Of a stretch of DNA of 64,000 nucleotides, positions 34,593 through 44,900 are shown in pieces. The stretch's first letter is position 1. Each line of letters opens with the position of its first letter. The stretch spans positions 1 to 64,000 of the forward strand of contig NZ_AOFD01000007.1 in the NCBI RefSeq assembly GCF_000332815.1. The letters run 5' to 3'. This DNA comes from Arthrobacter nitrophenolicus. Its GTDB lineage: Bacteria > Actinomycetota > Actinomycetes > Actinomycetales > Micrococcaceae. Made by a program: the position numbers and the translations under genes. The notes beneath the pieces were generated by a model that worked only from the letters and a program-made list of their open reading frames with translations, made no database searches and had not been told where the DNA came from.

Positions 34593-37332
34593 GTGGCATC
34601 ACTTATCGAAAAACTACTCCGCACGGGTGACAAAAAAACCCTGCGGCAACTGCGGAACTATGCCGACTCCATCAATGCACTCGAAGACTCGTTCAAGACC
34701 TTCACCGACGCTGAACTTCGCGAGGAAACGGACCGTCTGCGCGAACGGCACCAGGACGGCGAGAAACTGGACGACCTGCTTCCGGAGGCCTTCGCCGCGG
34801 TCAGGGAAGCCTCGTCCCGGACCCTGGGCATGCGGCACTTCGACGTCCAGCTGATGGGTGGCGCCGCCCTGCACCTTGGCAACATCGCCGAAATGAAGAC
34901 CGGTGAAGGCAAGACCCTGGTGGCAACCGCTCCTGCCTACCTGAACGCCCTCGCCGGCAAGGGTGTTCACGTGGTCACCGTGAACGACTACCTGGCCGAA
35001 TACCAGTCCGACCTGATGGGCCGCGTCTACCGGTTCCTGGGCCTGACCAGCGGATGCATCCTGTCCAACCAGGATCCTTCGGTGCGGCGCCAGCAGTATG
35101 CAGCCGACATCACGTACGGCACCAACAATGAGTTCGGGTTCGACTACCTGCGGGACAACATGGCCTGGGACCGGAACGAACTTGTCCAGCGCGGGCACCA
35201 CTTCGCGATCGTGGACGAGGTGGACTCCATCCTGATTGACGAAGCACGTACGCCACTGATCATCTCCGGCCCTGCCCAGGGCGACACCAACCGGTGGTAC
35301 AGCGAGTTCGCAAAGGTTGTTCTCCGGCTCCAGCCCGAGAAGGACTACGAGGTCGATGAGAAAAAGCGGACGGTCGGCGTGCTGGAGAGCGGCATCGAGA
35401 AAGTCGAGGACTACCTCGGTATTTCCAACCTCTACGAATCGGCAAACACTCCGCTGATCGGTTTCCTCAACAACGCCATTAAGGCGAAGGAACTGTTCAA
35501 GCGGGACAAGGACTACGTCATCCTCGACGGCGAGGTCCTGATCGTTGATGAGCACACGGGCCGCATCCTGGCCGGGCGCCGCTACAACGAGGGCATGCAC
35601 CAGGCGATCGAGGCCAAGGAAGGCGTCGAAATCAAGGCCGAGAACCAGACGCTGGCCACCGTGACCCTGCAGAACTACTTCCGCATGTACGCCAAGCTTT
35701 CCGGCATGACCGGTACCGCGGAAACCGAGGCCGCCGAGTTCATGAGCACCTACAAGCTCGGCGTCGTGCCCATTCCCACGAACCGGGATATGCAGCGCAT
35801 CGACCAGCCGGACCTGGTCTTCAAGAACGAGACCGTCAAATTCGACGCCGTGGTGCGTGACATCGCCGAACGCCACGAAAAGGGCCAGCCCGTCCTGGTG
35901 GGCACCACCAGCGTCGAAAAGAGCGAATACCTGTCCCGGCTCCTTGCCAAGGAAGGCATCCGGCACGAGGTCCTCAACGCAAGAACCATGCCCGCGAGGC
36001 TGCCATCGTTGCCCAGGCCGGCCGCAAGGCGCCGTCACCGTGGCTACCAACATGGCCGGCCGCGGTACGGACATCATGCTGGGCGGCAACGCAGAATTCA
36101 CCGCTGTTGCAGAACTCGCAAAGCGGGGTCTGGACCCGGAGGAAAATTCGGAGGAGTACGAGTCCGCGTGGCCTGCCGCCCTCGAATCAGCCAAGCAGTC
36201 GGTCAAGGACGAACATGAGGAAGTGCTGAACCTTGGCGGCCTCTACGTCCTGGGCACGGAGCGGCACGAGTCCCGCCGCATCGACAACCAGCTCCGCGGC
36301 CGGTCCGGCCGCCAGGGAGACCCGGGCGAGTCCCGCTTCTACCTGTCCCTGACCGATGACCTGATGCGGCTGTTCAACTCCGGTGCTGCCGAACGCCTCA
36401 TGAACAGCTCGGTACCGGACGACGTCGCGCTCGAATCCAAGCTTGTCTCGCGCGCCATCGCCTCTGCCCAGGGACAGGTGGAAGGCCGCAACGCCGAGCA
36501 GCGCAAGAACGTGCTGAAGTACGACGACGTCCTGAACCGCCAGCGCGAGGCCATCTACAGCGACCGGCGCCGCATCCTGGAAGGCGACGACCTGCACGAG
36601 AAGGTGCAGTTCTTCGTCGAGGACACCATCACGGCCCTGATCAACGACGCAACGGCAGAAGGGAACGGCGACGACTGGGACTTCCAGCAGCTCTGGACCA
36701 ACCTGAAGACGCTCTACCCTGTCACCGTCACTGCCGAGGAAATCATCGAAGAGGCCGGCGGCAAGTCAAGGGTCACTGTCGAAATGCTGAAGGAAGAGCT
36801 GCTGTCCGACGCCCGCCTGGTGTACCAGGCGCGGGAGGAAGCCCTCGGCTCCGAGAGCATGCGGGAGCTGGAGCGCCGCGTGGTCCTGTCCGTCATCGGG
36901 CGCAAGTGGCAGGAACACCTCTACGAGATGGATTACCTCAAGGAAGGCATCGGCCTGCGCGCCATGGCGCAGCGCGACCCGCTCGTTGAGTACCAGCGTG
37001 AAGGTTTTGTCCTGTTCCAGAGCATGATGGAGGCCATCCGCGAGGAAAGCGTGGGGTTCCTGTTCAACCTGGAAGTGGAAGTCACCCCAGCCCAGGACGT
37101 CGTGGTGCCGGACGCGGCCGGCGGACATACCGAGCACGTTGAGCCTCAGGTGAAAGCGGCCGGCCTGGAAGCGCCGGAAAAGCCTGCGCAGCTGCAGTAC
37201 ACGGCACCGAGCGAAAGCGGCGGAACCCAGACCCGCGTCGAGACCCGCTCGTCCGGCCGTTCCGGAAATCCCGCCAAGGCAGCGGCACAGGATGCGGCCC
37301 GGCGTTCCACGGGCAAGAAGAAGCGCCGCTGA
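34593..37332 (+). CDS. secA: Preprotein translocase ATPase SecA (two frame breaks)
   Basis: About 913 residues after repair. Walker A MKTGEGKT near 104, DEVD box in [17 protein letters not shown], the preprotein-binding domain, the helicase-2 motifs [16 protein letters not shown] and [15 protein letters not shown], and the helical scaffold/wing. The tail is Ala/Lys-rich (STGKKKRR) with no Cys-rich zinc motif. It drives Sec export and is essential. One A is missing at about 35981 (GCAAGAACC for GCAAAGAACC) and one G at about 36029 (AAGGCGCC for AAGGGCGCC); together they scramble only 16 codons. Start GTG with GGGAG ten bases upstream. This looks like the housekeeping SecA1. Confidence 0.96.
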
Positions 37333-37377
37333 ACCAGCAATTGTTGATGTAGCGCTGCCGGATGGCACGCAGCACAG

Positions 37378-37408
37378 GAGGCAGGTCCGCAAGTTCCGGA
37401 CCTGCCTC
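37378..37408 (+). terminator. Terminator after secA
   Basis: Perfect 12-bp stem (GAGGCAGGTCCG at 37378-37389 with 37397-37408), 7-base loop, then TTGTCT. It also lies just after the stop of the convergent Rv3235-family gene. Confidence 0.88.
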
Positions 37409-37445
37409 TTGTCTACGCATCAGCCGATGACAAGTTCGGTCACCC

Positions 37446-37922
37446 TCACACTTGCTTGCTGCGCTCCAGCCGGACGGCGACGGCGCGGGCACGGACGTCA
37501 TCCACCACCACCGCGCTTGCTTCGAAAACACCTTCGGCGACTTCGCAGACGCGGACCGAGCGGACGATGGAATTCCGGTGGAGGCGGGCCAGCGCGGGGT
37601 TTCCGGTGCGGGTTATCTCCCGCCTGATGAGGGAAGCCCGATGCTGCAGATTTCCCAGGCATCGCGGATCCAGCCGACGGGCCAGTTGGTGGACGGGCCG
37701 GATCCCCGCCAGTACTTCCATCGCGGCCTGGACTGTGCCGCGGGCTATGGCCCGTACCTCTGCTGTTTCGTCCACTGCCCGAAGCTCCGGTGCATTGGGA
37801 GGCCGCGGCGTCCTGCTGCGGCCGTGGTCCATCTGAGCTCCCGCTGTTCTGGGGGCGCGTCCTGTTCCCGGTTTGCTGGCTGTTGGTCCCTGGACGGCAC
37901 GGATTGGCGTGACGGCAGACAT
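37446..37922 (-). CDS. Rv3235-family protein
   Basis: 158 residues: a disordered basic leader (1-45), then the small alpha/beta domain of the actinobacterial Rv3235 family (AMEVLAGIRPVHQLARRLD near 70, ending ARAVAVRLERSKQV). Function is unknown; the family is often found near secA, as here. AAGGGGAA precedes the ATG by about four bases. Confidence 0.82.
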   Translation of the reverse strand: MSAVTPIRAVQGPTASKPGTGRAPRTAGAQMDHGRSRTPRPPNAPELRAVDETAEVRAIARGTVQAAMEVLAGIRPVHQLARRLDPRCLGNLQHRASLIRREITRTGNPALARLHRNSIVRSVRVCEVAEGVFEASAVVVDDVRARAVAVRLERSKQV

Positions 37923-38005
37923 GGGTTCCCCTTTGGTATTGGTTTCGTTTTTTGGATTCGTGCCTCTGGTGCCGCCGGGCCGCGTTCCTGCAGGGTGACG
38001 GCTGG

Positions 38006-38812
38006 TTACGCAGGTGCCGGCGGCAGCAGGATCTGTCCCGGCAGAAGGACATCCGGGTTCTGGCCAATGAGTTCCTTGTTGGCTTCATACCAGCGCGGCC
38101 ATTCGAGGGCTATGTCCACGTCCGACGCCCCGTGCCCCAGATGATTCGCCACAATCGTCCACAGACTGTCGCCGGCAAGGACGGTGACGCCTCCGGCAGG
38201 CCAACCCGTTGCACGTGAGGAGAACCCGCCCCGCACGGGGGACGCGGCCAGCGGCCCAGGTTCGACGACGGGTTCCCGCGGCTGCCACCCGGGTTCAACC
38301 GTTGACGGGGGAGCGGGGCTGGAAGGGGCCTTAGAGGCCTTTGCAGCAGAGGGTCGGGCGGCTTGTGGCTGAGCCAGGGAGTCTTTCCCGGCGGCAGATG
38401 AGGTGCTTTCCTGACCTTGGCTTGTGGGTAACCATTCAGGCCCCGGTACTGCCGCGTTGGCAGCAGCGCCCGACAAGAGCTGGAACGACACTGTGGCAAT
38501 GACCAGCCGCCGCATAAAAGCCGGAGACATCCTGCCTGCCGCTGCTGCGGCACGCCCCCTGCCACGTCTCTCAAACATCACACTGGCTGTCGCACAGGCG
38601 AGGGAAGCGAACCACCAGAGGAGGAGGACAGTACCGAAGGCTGCTGCGCCCGCCCCCAGAATCTGGTCCAGAGTGAACTGATGGTTCCGTGCCATGGATT
38701 CCTGCCATTGGCCGAGAAGTCCCGCTCCGATGGCGAGAAGCAGCCCGCCCAGGAGCAGCAGGGTGGCGGCCATCACAGCGTCCGCGCCGAGGGTGGTGCC
38801 CGGTCGTGCCAT
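38006..38812 (-). CDS. LysM domain membrane protein
   Basis: 268 residues. Transmembrane helices at about 12-34, 48-75 and 98-122 are followed by a Pro/Ser/Ala-rich extracytoplasmic linker and a C-terminal LysM domain (VTVLAGDSLWTIVANHLG to LLPGQILLPP, about 208-265) that should bind peptidoglycan. AGGGGA lies six bases before the ATG. It is divergent from the Sm-like gene; the AT-rich gap between them carries repeats listed separately. Confidence 0.88.
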   Translation of the reverse strand: MARPGTTLGADAVMAATLLLLGGLLLAIGAGLLGQWQESMARNHQFTLDQILGAGAAAFGTVLLLWWFASLACATASVMFERRGRGRAAAAAGRMSPAFMRRLVIATVSFQLLSGAAANAAVPGPEWLPTSQGQESTSSAAGKDSLAQPQAARPSAAKASKAPSSPAPPSTVEPGWQPREPVVEPGPLAASPVRGGFSSRATGWPAGGVTVLAGDSLWTIVANHLGHGASDVDIALEWPRWYEANKELIGQNPDVLLPGQILLPPAPA

Positions 38813-38828
38813 CTAAGTCCCCTTTAAT

Positions 38829-38880
38829 GCACTTTGATGCAGTTTGATACTGACTGAATCAGTTTGCTCGCATATTTGCG
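38829..38880. promoter_or_regulatory. AT-rich operator-like repeats between LysM and Sm-like genes
   Basis: Two adjacent 10-base repeats differing by one base (GCACTTTGAT 38829-38838, GCAGTTTGAT 38839-38848), then the inverted repeat ACTGA-N5-TCAGT (38849-38863) and CGCA-TATT-TGCG (38869-38880). The base composition contrasts sharply with the surrounding GC-rich DNA, which suggests protein binding and promoter function. Confidence 0.45.
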
Positions 38881-38939
38881 TGTTTGTCCAGACGCTGGAG
38901 CATGGAAATTGTTTTGTTGACCGGCCGGGGATGCGGCCC

Positions 38940-38945
38940 TACTCT
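38940..38945 (+). promoter_or_regulatory. -10 box of leaderless promoter for the Sm-like gene
   Basis: TACTCT ends six bases (GGCCGG) before the ATG at 38952; no Shine-Dalgarno. Confidence 0.5.
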
Positions 38946-38951
38946 GGCCGG

Positions 38952-39520
38952 ATGCGCTGGGATGCACTCTTCAATGACATGGAAAGCCAGATGGCGGAAT
39001 CGGACCGGCTGTCACTCGACGCCGAGGTCAATGAACGCGCCAAGGTGGAGGAGGTGGAGCTGGGGCTGGCCGACAGATTGCGATCGGCACTCGGCTGCTT
39101 GGTCACTGTGCACCTGTCCGGCGGGGAAACGCTGCACGGCACACTGGCGCACGCCGGAGCGGACGCCCTGGTGCTCCATGACGATCCACACCAGATCCTG
39201 GTTCCCTACGCCGCGGCGGCCCGATATGTGGGCCTGGGCAGGTTCTCGCATTCCGAGCCGTCGAAGGTGCGCCGCGGGTTGGGTCTCGCGCACTCTCTGC
39301 GTGCCTCGCGAGGGACCGGGCGGTTCTTACCGTTACCTTGGGGTACGGCGCCGGCCCCGTCCGCCTGGAAGGGGTCATCGACAGGGTGGGAAGGGACTAC
39401 TTCGACCTCGCGGCAGTGGTTCCCGGGGAACCGCGGCGAAGCGTTCACGTCACGGGCGTTTCGAGCATTCCATTCGCGGCGCTGGCAGCCATCAGGTCGC
39501 CCCTTCTGCGGGACATGTGA
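38952..39520 (+). CDS. Tandem Sm-like (Hfq-like fold) protein, frameshifted
   Basis: About 189 residues after repair; the function is not established. An acidic N-terminal helix (1-45) is followed by two similar units. Unit 1 (about 47-100): VTVHLSGGETLHGTLAHAG, ALVLHD, ILVPYAAAARY. Unit 2 (about 118-186): LTVTLGYGAGPVRLEGVIDRVGRDYFDLA, then SSIPFAALAAI. Each has the order beta-VxVxL, Gly, GxL/I, xxxG, strand, then I/L-P-Y/F-A-A, which recalls Sm/Hfq or similar small beta barrels. One C is missing at about 39304 (GCCTCGC for GCCCTCGC), which hides unit 2. The ATG fits a leaderless start. The fold call is by eye. Confidence 0.6.
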
Positions 39521-39558
39521 CAGGCCCGGCCGGTAGGCCTGTGGTTGCGCGTGCCTGG

Positions 39559-39774
39559 TCAGACAGACCGGGACTTGGACTCCTGGATCATGCGGCTGGC
39601 CTCGGCGTAGCGCTCCTCGATGTACTGCTCGAGCATTTTCTCTTCGACACGCCACTGGCCCCGGCCGCCCACCTGGATAGCCTTCAGTTCTCCGCTTCGC
39701 ACCAGTGCGTACGCGGCAGGCGAATTGATCTGGAGCTGCTCAGCGACATCCGCGAGCGTCAGGAACCTGGGCAT
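39559..39774 (-). CDS. Small excisionase-type HTH DNA-binding protein
   Basis: 71 residues, HTH_17/MerR-like winged helix: LTLADVAEQLQINSPAAYALVRSGELKAIQVGGRGQWRV is split between the HTH and wing, followed by a helical tail. Such proteins act as small transcription regulators or excisionases; no integrase is nearby, so a chromosomal regulator is more likely. GGAGG lies only one base before the ATG, closer than usual. It is convergent with the Sm-like gene and divergent from the SAF gene, which it might regulate. Confidence 0.8.
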   Translation of the reverse strand: MPRFLTLADVAEQLQINSPAAYALVRSGELKAIQVGGRGQWRVEEKMLEQYIEERYAEASRMIQESKSRSV

Positions 39775-39926
39775 GCCTCCATTTTGCCATCACTTGGCTC
39801 ACTTTGCGTCCGTTATCCACAGATTGGCATTGTTTGCGCCAATGACTTTCGTTTGGCAGCCCTTGCCGCAACAATGAGGTGTCCGGCCGCAACGGGGGTG
39901 CCGGCGCTACCAGGGGGAGAAGCGGC

Positions 39927-40577
39927 ATGGTTCCAGAATCGACGGCCACGGCCACGGCTGCGCGCCTGAGGCGCCCCTCTTGGAAAGATCCCCGCCTGCT
40001 GGTGGGCATACTGCTGGTCCTCGTGTCCGTGGCAGGCGTGGTCTTCCTGGTCAACGGTGCGGACCGGACGACGGAGGTTTACGCAGCCCGTGACGGCATC
40101 GCCGTGGGAGAGCAGCTCACCCCCGAAAACGTTGTCCGGGCCAAGGTCCGGCTGGGTGAAACCGAGCAGCACTACATCCCCGTCAAATCCGGTTTGCCGG
40201 AGGGGATGGTGGCCGTGCAGCGGATCGGCAAGGACCAGTTGGTTCCCCGGGCAAGCCTGGGTGAAGTAGATGACCTTGACCGCAAACCGGTGGCCATCAG
40301 CGTCGAGGGGACCCTGCCGTCGCAGGCTGTGGCAGGTGCAAGGGTTGACGTGTGGGTTGCCCAGCCTGATGCGAAGAACGGCTTCAGCGAGCCAAAGCTC
40401 CTTCTTCCCGGAGCTGAGATTGCTGAGGTGGCAGAAGGTTCTTCTGCCCTCGGTTCCACTAAAACAACCGTGCTCATGGTCCTCGTGGAGGACGGCCAGA
40501 TGCCGGCTCTGCTCGGCGCACAGGCCAACGACGCGAAGATCTCGGTTGTCTGGAATCCGGGCGGCGGAACGCGATGA
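39927..40577 (+). CDS. SAF domain membrane protein (CpaB-like)
   Basis: 216 residues. One transmembrane helix at 23-43, then a SAF domain (about 49-110, EVYAARDGIAVGEQLTPENV) and a beta-rich C-terminal region, the architecture of CpaB/RcpC-type proteins of Flp (Tad) pili. GGGGGAGAAG lies upstream of the ATG. The stop overlaps the CpaE-like gene by four bases. No secretin is expected in a Gram-positive, so its role may be at the membrane or in the wall. Confidence 0.8.
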   Translation: MVPESTATATAARLRRPSWKDPRLLVGILLVLVSVAGVVFLVNGADRTTEVYAARDGIAVGEQLTPENVVRAKVRLGETEQHYIPVKSGLPEGMVAVQRIGKDQLVPRASLGEVDDLDRKPVAISVEGTLPSQAVAGARVDVWVAQPDAKNGFSEPKLLLPGAEIAEVAEGSSALGSTKTTVLMVLVEDGQMPALLGAQANDAKISVVWNPGGGTR

Positions 40578-41886
40578 GCATCCCGGTGGTCACCGTAGGC
40601 CAGAGCCGGGAGGATCTGGTGGGCGGACTTGAACGGCTGCACGGGCCTGTCACGGTTGTCAGAAGATGCGCGGAGCTCGCGGAACTGCTGGCCGCATGCC
40701 AAAGCGGAATGGCGCGGGCGGCCGTAGTTGCGGATGGCAGCGAGGGATTGACGGCTTCGCTCGTGGACAGGCTTGAAGCCGTGGGAGTCGCCATCATTGC
40801 GCTGACGGACAATGCCGAAGAAGCCGCAAGGCTGCGAAAGATCGGCGTCTCCTGTGCATTGTCCGCGGTTGAATCAGCTGAGTTGTCCCAACGGATCTCG
40901 GAGGCAGTGGAGCAACTAACAGCTGGCGGCCGGGGATCAACAGGCCGGGGATCCTCCCTGGCGGACACCGGTGCAGCCCTTCAAACGAAGCTGGCGGACA
41001 CACCCGCAACTTCTCCCGACGTCCCCGGGGCCGGACGCGTTATTGCCGTGTGGGGTCCGGCAGGGTCTCCGGGGCGCACCACCCTCGCGGCGAACATCGC
41101 CGGCGAACTGGCCGCGGACGGGCAGCAGGTTCTCCTCATTGATGCCGACAGTTATGGCGCAAGCATTGCCGCAGTGCTGGGTCTGCTGGATGAATCGGCA
41201 GGCCTGGCGCAGGCCTGCAGGCTGGCTGACCAGGGGAGCTGGATGATGCCGCCCTTGAACGGATTGCCACCCCTGTTGCCACTGTTTCCGCGACGTTCAG
41301 GGTGTTGACCGGCATTACCCGCGCGGACCGGTGGACCGAGCTTCGGGCGCCCGCCCTTGCGCTGGTCCTGGAGCGGGCGCGCCGGAATGCCGACGTCGTG
41401 ATTGTTGATACCGGTTTTTGCCTCGAAGCAGATGAGGAGCTCAGCTTCGACACTTTGGCCCCGCGCCGAAATGCCGCCACGCTGCGTCCGCTGGAGCTGG
41501 CCGACACAATTTACGCCGTCGGCGCCGCCGATCCCGTAGGAGTGCCGCGCCTCGTGCGTGGGCTTGCAGAACTTGAGGCCGCAGTGCCGCAGGCCTCTCC
41601 CGTTGTGGTGATGAACAAGGTACGTGCCTCGTCCGTGGGCAGGAATCCCGAACGGCAGCTGCGGGAAGCATGGGAAAGGTTCGGTCCGGCGTTCGCCCTC
41701 AACGAGTTCCTTCCCTATGATGCGGCAGCTGCTGATGCAGCCCTGCTGTCAGGGTCACTGCTGCTTGAGGCAGCACCCGAGTCGATGCTGCGCCGCGCTG
41801 TGCGGAGGCTCGTTTGTGCACCTGACCAGCAAAAATCTCAATCCTCTGTCTTTTCTTCCACAGCAAGGCGTCGGGCAAAGGACTAG
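40574..41886 (+). CDS. CpaE/MinD-like ATPase with altered P-loop (frameshifted)
   Basis: About 437 residues. Residues 1-115 resemble the receiver-like domain of CpaE, a Gly/Ser linker follows, then a MinD/ParA fold from 154 (VIAVWGPAGSPGRTTLAANIAGEL, VLLIDADSYGASIA, ADVVIVDTGF). The P-loop reads GSPGRTT with Arg168 where Lys is invariant in working ATPases, and the deviant-Walker signature Lys is also absent. One G is missing in the G-run at 41233-41236. It is translationally coupled to the SAF protein. CpaE proteins localise Tad pilus assembly; here no CpaF, TadB or TadC follows. Confidence 0.82.
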
Positions 41887-41942
41887 GCTCGCCATAAGAG
41901 CTGCAATGGAGCGGCAAAAACTTGTGATGGAGGCGTGTGTCG

Positions 41943-44900
41943 ATGTCGTCGGGATCCAGCGTGGAGGATCAGCCCCTTTCCATTGAAGGCGCGGAAGGCT
42001 TCATTGGGGACTACTACCAGCATCTGGCCGAGGAGGACGCGCGGAGCTATCCCCGCGAAGTACTCGTTGCCCGGGCAGAGAACCACCGTGAGGTTGCGGC
42101 TGTGCGGCGGCCCGGCCAGGCGAAAACCGCCATTATTGACGAGGAAGACAGCAGTGTTGTCTTCGTGGTCACTGACGACATGCCGTTCCTGGTTGACTCG
42201 GTCAATGCCGAGCTCGTCCGCCAGCACGCCGCCATCAAGCTGGTGGTCCACCCCCTGATTGTCGCCACCCGCGACAGGGACAACGGAAACCTGGTCAAAG
42301 TGAACAGGGTCCCGTCCCACATCGGAATCTCCAGCGGTGACACGGCAGCAATGCCCAGCCTGTCCCACCTCATCGCGCAGGGTGAAAATGCCTCGCACAT
42401 GGAGTCCTGGATCGCCGTCGAAATCAACCGCGTGTCCGAGGAAACCAAGGCGTCCTTGCTGGAGGGCCTGAACCGGGTCCTTAATGATGTCCGGGCTGCC
42501 GTGGAGGACTGGCCCAAAATGCGCCAGAAGGCGCGGCAGATCTCCGAAAGCCTGGACCAGGTGGCAAACCCGGCACAGATCGCGGAGCTGCGGCAGGCGA
42601 AGGACCTGCTCCGCTGGCTGGACGACGGCAACTTCACCTTCCTGGGGTACAGGGAGTACGACCTCATCAACGTGGATGGCGAGGACGTCCTTGAACTGCG
42701 CGAGGACAGCGGCTGGGGCTTCTGCGGGCGGCTGCAGACTCGCCGCACATCCAGCACCTCACCGACACCGGGCGGAAGAAGGCCCGGGAAAAGCGGGCCC
42801 TCGTCATCACCAAGGCCAACTCCCGCTCTACCGTCCACCGCTCCGCGTACCTGGACTACATCGGGGTCAAGAGCTTTGACGCCGCGGGCAACGTCAACGG
42901 CGAACGGCGCTTCATCGGACTCTTTGCCACCAGCGCCTACACCGGCTCGGTCCGGAACATCCCGATTGTCCGCGAGAAAGTCGATGCCGTCCTGCGCAGT
43001 GCCGGCTTCCCGCCTGACTCCCACTCCGGCAAGGACCTGCTGGGAATCCTGGAAACCTACCCCCGTGACGAACTTTTCCAGATTGAAGTCCCGGACCTGG
43101 CAGCAACCGCCCTGGGCATCCAAAAACTGCAGGAACGCCGCAGGACGCGGCTGTTCCTGAGGCCGGACATCTACGGACGGTTCATGTCCGCCGTCGTCTA
43201 CCTTCCGCGCGACCGGTACACCACCAACGTCCGGCTCCGCATTGAACAGGAACTGCGCGAAACCTTCCAGGCCGTGTCCATCGACTATGAGGCACGCATG
43301 ACCGAATCGGCACTCGCGCGCCTGTTCTTCCGCATCCGCCTGCCCAAGAACGCCGACGTCAGCCACGTGAACACCGCGGAACTTGAAAAGCGGCTGGTCC
43401 GCGCGGCCCGCTCCTGGAGCGAAGGGATTGCCGAGGTCCTGCGCGAGGGCCGGGACGCCGAGGAAGCCAAGGAGCTCGCCGCCATCTGGGCTGAAGCCTT
43501 CCCCGCGGGCTACCGGGTGGACTACGAGGTGGAGGACGCCCTCGAGGACATCGCCCGCTTCGAAAGATACGGTGCGGCCGCGGAACGTGCGGTGGGGGCC
43601 CGCCAGGAACGGCCCGGTGTGCACGTCTACCTTCCCGAAGGGGCAGGGGCGACGCTCGAAGAGGACGCCCGCGTCAAGCTCTATATGCTTGAGCCCAAGA
43701 GTCTGAGCCAGATCCTGCCCTACTTCCACAACCTGGGGCTTGAGGTGCTCGACGAGCGCCCGTTCGAGATCGAAACCGCGGACCGCCGTGACTTTTTCCT
43801 CTACGACCTGGGGCTGAAGTACCCGGCCGGTGTGGATCCCGTGTCCACCGGGGAGCTGCTGGCCGATTCCTTTGGTGCCGCCGTGACAGGCGCCGCCGAG
43901 TCCGATGCGTTTGACCGGCTGGTCCTGCGCGAGGGCATGCACTGGCGGCAGGTCACCGTGCTCCGCGCGTACGCCCGGTACATGCGGCAGATGGGCAACA
44001 GCAACTCCTTCGGCTTCATGGCGGACACCCTGCTGGCCAACGCTGACGTCGCCAGGGGCCTAAGTGCGCTGTTTGCCGCTCGCTTTGACCCGGAGCTCAA
44101 CGACGCCGAGCGGCTGGAAGCCCAGGAGACCGTGCGGCAGGAGCTCGCTGCCTCCATTGAGAAGGTGGCCACGCTCGACGCCGACAGGGTCCTGCGTACG
44201 TTCGCCAACCTGATCGAAGCCACGCTGCGGACCAACTACTACCAGGACAAGCGGCACCTGAGCTTTAAGCTCGATCCCTCCCGGATCGACGGGCTGCCCT
44301 TCCCCCGGCCAATGTTCGAAATCTGGGTATACGCACCCCGCGTGGAGGGCGTCCACCTCCGCTTCGGCAAGGTCGCCCGCGGCGGGCTCCGCTGGTCGGA
44401 CCGCCGCGAGGACTTCCGCACGGAGGTCCTGGGCCTGGTGAAGGCACAAACCGTCAAGAACGCCGTCATCGTGCCCACCGGCGCAAAGGGCGGGTTCTTC
44501 GCCAAGCAGCTCCCGGACCCCGCCGTTGACCGGGCCGCGTGGATGGCTGAGGGGGTCGAGAGCTACAAGACGTTCATCAGCGGCCTGCTGGACCTCACCG
44601 ACAACCTCGTGACGGAAGGCGACGGCGAAAGGCTCGTGCCGCCGTCGAACGTTGTCCGGCACGACGATGACGACTCCTACCTCGTGGTGGCGGCCGACAA
44701 GGGAACCGCCACGTTCTCCGACATCGCGAACGGGCTCGCCGCCGAGTACGGGTTCTGGCTGGGCGACGCCTTCGCCTCCGGCGGATCCGTGGGATACGAC
44801 CACAAGGCCATGGCATAACCGCCCGCGGTGCCTGGGAGTCCGTGAAGCGCCACTTCAGCGAACTCGACCTGGACACCCAAACCCAGCCGTTCACGGTTGT

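Follow-up and report, generated by a model that had tools for sequence, protein, structure and literature searches.

A predicted tandem Sm-fold protein of Arthrobacter and related actinobacteria

Introduction

Hfq has one Sm domain per chain, forms a hexameric ring and anneals small RNAs with mRNAs; Sm-type barrels occur also in proteins other than RNA chaperones. To our knowledge Actinomycetota lack Hfq, and how small RNAs are handled in this phylum without it is a standing question. Two described proteins bear on what else an Sm-type barrel may do. PafBC of Arthrobacter aurescens has WYL domains with the Sm fold (PMC6789036, accessible text), and mycobacterial PafBC binds single-stranded DNA (PMC11804915, accessible text), so that an Sm fold in an actinobacterium need not be that of an RNA chaperone. 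Rof (YaeO), as described in the accessible text of PMC11018626, combines a single Sm-like barrel with a functional N-terminal helix and binds Rho via this helix, the β3–β4 loop and the C-terminus. The nearest solved structure, PSV ORF137 (PDB 2x4j) of Pyrobaculum spherical virus, is an archaeal virus protein that holds two barrels in one chain of 109 residues.

Here we describe a gene of Arthrobacter nitrophenolicus whose product is predicted to carry two Sm-fold barrels behind an acidic helix. It lies in the first 64,000 nucleotides of contig NZ_AOFD01000007.1, the whole of which is called the window below. No description of this family was found in the literature searched, the coverage of which was partial. 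Many soil actinobacteria carry a single copy of the protein, which is unstudied and for which two Hfq-shaped barrels per chain are predicted. It is a concrete and directly testable candidate for small-RNA handling in Actinomycetota; even without RNA binding, it would contribute an architecture of two barrels that finds its best fold match, among solved structures, in a protein of an archaeal virus.

Results and discussion

A gene split by a probable assembly error

An earlier note, made from the letters of the window, had placed two similar units at 38952–39520, with the second hidden by a frameshift and the frame stopping before it. Two such units are present there (Table 1) and the remainder of unit 2 does lie in another frame; the first frame, however, does not stop ahead of unit 2. 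It opens with ATG at 38952, and the 117 residues encoded up to 39302 comprise unit 1 with the N-terminal helix ahead of it and the beginning of unit 2 behind it; from there the frame runs on open, but out of register, as far as 39536. The family profile accordingly matches the window in two pieces, model positions 1–118 at 38952–39305 and 118–180 at 39302–39499, and an uninterrupted two-unit protein is encoded at 46 of 48 homologous loci (L002–L049, the exceptions being L017 and L036).

The frameshift is most likely technical, an assembly error, because 16 of the 41 window genes are split over at least two frames when set against the syntenic stretch of a genome of the same genus (a mechanical criterion, by which 55 open frames of the relative were tried and 41 aligned to the window). 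The split genes include secA (pieces 97% and 94% identical), the ParA-like ATPase gene and that of a 1709-residue protein. A programmed or otherwise biological frameshift was rejected because of the same split genes, secA among them, and in so error-rich an assembly any frameshift within the window is to be distrusted. The genome assembly comprises 4.4 Mb in 142 contigs and is 90.6% complete. Further copies appearing frameshifted or truncated were seen at loci L107 (Hiyo4), L121 (Fe7), L017 and L036.

Table 1. Features of the tandem Sm-fold locus, in window coordinates.
Feature	Position	Strand	Basis or remark
DUF6459 (PF20060), syntenic neighbour	37446..37922	-	
LysM-like (by eye), divergent syntenic neighbour	38006..38812	-	No Pfam match at 0.01
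Promoter-like element: TTGACC at 38917, 17-base spacer, TACTCT at 38940	38917..38945	+	Ends 6 bases before ATG
Tandem Sm-fold gene	38952..39520	+	Product of 189 residues among close relatives; split by assembly frameshift
Predicted N-terminal acidic helix, residues 1–35, motif MRWDxLFxDLExQ	38952..39056	+	Structure model and conservation
Unit 1, residues 36–101: helix and five strands, predicted Sm-type barrel	39057..39254	+	Structure model and profile
Unit 2, first part (frame 1), with L116-R117 of its helix	39261..39302	+	Model and alignment
Frameshift point, assembly or sequencing error	39302..39305	+	Family profile and genes of a relative
Unit 2, remainder in the other frame: LARDR helix end, five strands, stop	39305..39520	+	
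HTH_17 protein, 71 residues, convergent syntenic neighbour	39559..39774	-	
SAF/CpaB-like (by eye), syntenic neighbour	39879..40577	+	L080 orthologue without Pfam match at 0.01
ParA/CpaE-like P-loop ATPase, syntenic	40574..41886	+	Pfam on L080 orthologue; split over frames in the assembly

Predicted structure

The earlier note had expected a five-strand Sm-like barrel in each half and had named a different fold in either half, or homologues with unlike halves, as what would speak against it. Both points were examined on homologues, and in both the expectation held. The AlphaFold2 model of the protein from Arthrobacter sp. P2b (locus L080, which shares 69% identity with the window across the first 118 residues) has a pLDDT of 90.5 and a pTM of 0.79, and consists of a helix at residues 2–35, a helix at 39–45 with five strands, and a helix at 112–121 with five further strands. 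A second model (pLDDT 83.6, pTM 0.72) is of a divergent member from a genome of the same family; this protein has 22% identity to that of P2b and 18–29% to the others aligned. The model shows the same order of elements, with a low-confidence stretch of some 30 residues separating strand 3 from strand 4 in unit 2. In the predicted structures of both homologues each half thus has the N-terminal helix and five-strand bent barrel of the Sm fold, and these models support a chain that begins with an acidic helix and continues with two Sm-fold barrels. The low-confidence insertion in unit 2 of the divergent member L172 (L172:1907–2554) is rich in Gly and Tyr, contains Arg and is probably disordered.

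When solved structures were searched with Foldseek, PSV ORF137 ranked first (E 5.5e-5) and was the sole match below 0.001. Hfq accounted for 41 of the best 50 rows, at E of about 0.01, the others being Spindlin, Tudor and DegP/HtrA, mostly at lower probability. Among viral structure models the best match was a protein of Pyrobaculum spherical virus 2 (E 2.1e-6). With VIA-align, PSV ORF137 extended across both barrels of the P2b model (Z 12.8, rmsd 2.4 Å, 109 of 109 residues), while Hfq and Lsm chains aligned separately to approximately residues 35–99 and to residues 107–186 (Z 6.9–7.6). For the second model PSV ORF137 again led (Z 11.9, with 109 residues over both barrels at 2.4 Å), and the next rows, mostly Hfq and Sm, lay at 6.3–7.5. 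The main structural matches of each half are therefore Hfq and Lsm proteins, as the earlier note's proposal would have it.

Since PSV ORF137 spans both barrels of both models, the relative placement of the barrels is the same in the predicted family structures and in the viral protein, each chain carrying its pair of barrels in a matching arrangement. This likeness is known from the structural match and not from homology: identity is 10–13%, no relation at the sequence level was seen, and the viral chain differs in being without the long N-terminal helix. In the P2b model, 63 residues of unit 2 superpose on E. coli Hfq (5new_A) with 25% identity and an rmsd of 1.5 Å.

Repeat and relation to Sm and Hfq profiles

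The similarity of the two halves, also claimed in the earlier note, is borne out by profiles built from 82 members (a set thinned to 70% identity), of which 64 columns align from the helix to the last strand (hhalign 89.3%, score 39.3, versus a best score of 8.0 among 60 column-shuffled controls). As far as sequence goes the repeat is a profile-level result. For the window sequence alone, alignment of one half to the other gives a score of 27, where shuffled sequences average 13.4; this is marginal, 29 of 1000 shuffles reaching 27; among single proteins, half against half gave z>3 in 20 and z>2 in 34 of the 82. The two barrels most likely derive from one ancestral unit.

Each unit was also compared with known proteins. 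At E<=10 the unit 1 profile had five matches among PDB sequences, all Sm, Lsm or Hfq and each of them weak (E 0.05–1): three are so by name, and the other two, KLLA0A11308p (5lop) and 1ycy, we take to be Lsm-type proteins. The unit 2 profile matched Hfq in 14 of 16 cases (E 0.25–0.75), individually weak and not independent, since many are variants of one E. coli sequence; the remaining two were a mud crab virus protein and a designed SH3 binder. The register of unit 2 on Hfq in these matches is LRALARDRAEVRV on LNALRRERVPVSI. The search with the whole-protein profile was led by EF-2 and ribosomal S14 (E 0.028–0.45), in matches straddling both units, and neither protein was found when PDB sequences were searched with the single-unit profiles.

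The commonest Pfam match was DUF2642 (PF10842), a family of unknown function, which was matched by 17 of 46 whole proteins (best E 5.3e-6) and by 15 and 8 of 67 members for units 1 and 2 respectively. Behind it came SM-ATX, RimP C-terminal, LSM, Hfq_1 and Hfq, amid unrelated single matches. The two Hfq families were each matched by one of the 46 whole proteins, with best E-values of 0.28 (PF17209) and 0.019 (TIGR02383), and Hfq profiles on single units reached 0.19 for unit 1 (1/67) and 0.14 for unit 2 (3/67). LSM (PF01423) gave 0.031 at best in unit 1 (4/67) and 0.18 in whole proteins (1/46). As inferred from the E-values, the Hfq matches, of whole proteins and of single units, and those to LSM lie below the cut-offs of these families. 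Unrelated weak matches comprised thiE (2/46, best 6.8e-4), Amino_oxidase (1/46, 0.0017), the FlgD Tudor domain (1/67, 0.0027) and, for the first half of the window protein, ETF (0.082). The family resembles LSm/SmAP proteins in its unit 1 PDB matches and in weakly matching SM-ATX, LSM and the C-terminal domain of RimP, but all these matches are weak and none amounts to membership.

When aligned directly to 11 Hfq sequences with hhalign, unit 1 reached 3.5% and unit 2 reached 0.7%, values that are weak yet in each case above all 60 shuffles. Because these values are so low, direct homology to Hfq by profile was dropped and is not claimed. The predicted fold is that of Sm proteins; membership of the Hfq family does not hold, and no descent from Hfq itself is proposed. 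What is shared with Hfq is the helix and five-strand Sm fold predicted for each half (Z about 7), together with putative rim-type arginines in unit 2. The family differs from Hfq in having two units per chain, an extra acidic helix and weak profile matches, and in being without a Lys–His pair.

It is very improbable that the resemblance arises by chance, or from a generic SH3-like small barrel that is not of the Sm type. A Z near 7 is common among small barrels and, taken alone, could be generic; Spindlin, Tudor and DegP/HtrA do stand among the best 50 Foldseek rows, and Hfq profile matches are weak, with unrelated families scoring equally well or better in single members. Nevertheless, the models of two sequences only 22% identical agree, Sm and Hfq chains fill nearly all VIA-align rows, the two-barrel Z of 11.9–12.8 is far above all others, and the separate unit profiles match Sm proteins in register. 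We place the weight on the two-barrel match and on this consistency; that a structural search lists no other fold does not rule one out.

Conserved residues and candidate functions

The residues M1, R2, W3, F7, D9, R42 and D149 are identical in all 82 members. Loci L080–L159 were collected by a scan for either RW[DE]xLFxD[LM]E or a pattern from unit 2, and their N-terminal invariance is in part a product of this selection; R2, W3, F7 and D9 are likewise present in all 52 members from L002–L079 that were not found by peptide pattern, these being the best-scoring matches. The divergent member L172, which lies outside the 82, begins MSMEKFLRDIEARL, and several weaker members from the class match the profile only from model position 5–12.

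In the helix of unit 2, R117, R121 and R123 occur jointly in 74 of 82 members, a pattern missing from unit 1. In the register of the profile alignments they align with what we take to be N13, R17 and R19 of Hfq, residues presumably belonging to its rim. This naming is matched in part by the accessible text of PMC6789036. The earlier note had also read the final P-Y/F-A-A layout of each unit as a sign of the Sm type. The predicted fold is of this type; the position, though, is that of Y-K-H-A in Hfq, where the family has P-x-x-A (P in 68/82 for unit 1 and 76/82 for unit 2, A in 64/82 and 60/82), and a K-H pair was found there in none of the 82 members, in either unit or in any register around the Sm2 motif, compared with 9 of 11 reference Hfq. 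Because the Lys–His pair is missing from both units we propose no binding of the Hfq type at a proximal pore; the conserved residues argue for a rim-like surface instead, if nucleic acid is bound at all.

The earlier note had offered RNA binding as no more than a hypothesis. Whether the Sm-fold protein binds nucleic acid, probably RNA, we regard as evenly poised. The arginine-rich helix of unit 2 would be the main contact for single-stranded nucleic acid, most likely RNA, and the conserved acidic N-terminal helix would either dock a partner protein or shield the basic unit 2. The retention of R117, R121 and R123 and the basic character of unit 2 (median pI 11.3, with 8.3 for unit 1 and 4.3 for the N-terminal helix) are consistent with such binding; the median pI of the whole protein, just 6.4, speaks against it, and none of the identified neighbours of the gene is a known gene of RNA metabolism.

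The N-terminal helix raises a second, rather doubtful reading, in which the protein is an adaptor similar to Rof, the barrels forming a scaffold and the helix docking on Rho, RNA polymerase or the ribosome. Conservation is indeed densest in this helix (M1, R2, W3, F7 and D9, all 82/82), and docking on Rho is what the N-terminal helix of Rof does (PMC11018626, accessible text). Such an adaptor would, however, leave the conserved basic helix of unit 2 unexplained; the N-terminal motif is not universal, given L172 and the weaker class members whose match begins at model position 5–12; and Rof itself has a single barrel, its profile (PF07073) touching only 1 of 67 unit-1 members at E 0.1.

A nucleic acid-binding role could go as far as that of an Hfq counterpart. 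Three two-barrel chains might build a six-barrel ring with unequal, alternating faces, in which the arginine helix of unit 2 would lie on RNA, the N-terminal helix would act as a gate, and the whole would serve as a matchmaker of small RNA and mRNA, i.e. an RNA chaperone. A ring of three chains, in line with the earlier note's suggestion of a ring from fewer subunits, is conceivable; the full proposal is unlikely. If true, it would place an RNA chaperone in a phylum believed to have none. The statement in the earlier note that actinobacteria generally lack a recognised Hfq agrees with our sampling, PF17209 at E 0.01 having no match in any of 60 sampled Actinomycetota genomes; of 14 named controls, 5 gave a match in the same search.

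The Sm-fold WYL domains of PafBC (PMC6789036, accessible text), with single-stranded DNA binding in mycobacteria (PMC11804915, accessible text), offer a precedent for a single-stranded DNA sensor or transcription co-regulator, and at 74 of 75 loci the gene converges with that of a small HTH protein. We consider this role improbable. PafBC has HTH and WCX domains besides WYL, whereas the modelled chain of helix, barrel, linker and barrel leaves no room for either, and thus no space for a DNA-binding domain; moreover, WYL is not among the Pfam matches listed for whole proteins, for unit 1 (25 of 28 families) or for unit 2.

Promoter-like element and gene neighbourhood

The order of the locus is secA, DUF6459 (opposite strand), LysM-like (opposite), the Sm-fold gene, HTH_17 (opposite), SAF-like and ParA-like ATPase, so that the Sm-fold gene stands by itself, one neighbour being divergent and the other convergent. 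In 76 of 80 named loci a TANNNT hexamer lies 5–7 bases upstream of the start codon, a pattern found at 80 of 10,016 other ATGs, and TTGAC precedes it by 16–20 bases in 58 of the 80, being missing mainly outside the closest relatives. A Shine–Dalgarno-like sequence was seen in 3 of 79 loci. As TANNNT abuts the start codon, a leaderless transcript is implied, and the Sm-fold gene would be expressed from a leaderless mRNA. A generic sigma-70 scanner did not report the promoter-like element of the window, and Rfam had no match at gathering scores over 36000–42500.

Flanks were complete for 75 of the 80 named loci, most of them Arthrobacter-like, and in these BLAST with the genes of L080 showed the neighbourhood to be strongly kept: DUF6459 and the LysM-like gene were found in 75/75, the HTH, SAF-like and ATPase genes in 74/75 and secA in 69/75. 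Around DUF6459 in eight profile-negative genomes no open reading frame of the family was found (best E 0.052); in the same eight the LysM-like gene was missing throughout and the HTH gene in seven, one genome keeping it. Presence within this module in 74–75 of 75 loci (secA 69/75), and the joint absence of the LysM-like and HTH genes where the Sm-fold gene is lacking, would suit a structural small β-barrel that binds no nucleic acid and serves a surface or secretion module of secA, DUF6459, LysM-like, SAF-like and ParA-like proteins. This too we find improbable, as the divergent and convergent orientations and the gene's own promoter pattern speak against co-transcription, and one of the eight, a 1.3-Mb genome (L210), retains the SAF-like and ParA-like genes beside DUF6459 and secA without an Sm-fold gene.

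Distribution of the family

Orthologues of the Sm-fold protein are single-copy and 167–199 residues long. With the first half of the window protein as query, 52 of 59 relatives matched. Among these, 36 of 37 genomes of the genus matched, that of the window included, the sole negative genome being 68% complete. At the order level the same query matched 106 of 149 genomes. Matching genomes had one copy each, except for one with two matches; the misses are partly due to the insensitivity of a single-half query, as genome G092 carries a divergent member in spite of its miss. A 46-sequence profile matched 143 of 296 genomes at the class level and 22 of 246 in a phylum-wide draw, several of the latter weakly. 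No match was found by profile search among the genomes listed for two families with large genomes (f37 and f22), apart from a short and probably spurious match (1.8e-4) within a 1536-residue frame of one f37 genome. A single half of the window protein found nothing when searched against genome contigs, and a profile scan of contigs did find members. At E 0.01 plasmids (query L002) and phages (query L157) gave no match, and matches in PHROGs were scattered and weak (best 3.6e-4, in 1/46).

The best 80 of 433 relatives include Arthrobacter, Pseudarthrobacter, Paenarthrobacter, Kribbella, Kineosporia, Phycicoccus and Cellulomonas, as well as uncultured Frankiales and Pseudonocardiales. An Arthrobacter-like member with its neighbourhood was also found on a contig titled Vibrio cholerae strain 35D (L140), most likely a mislabelled or contaminated assembly.
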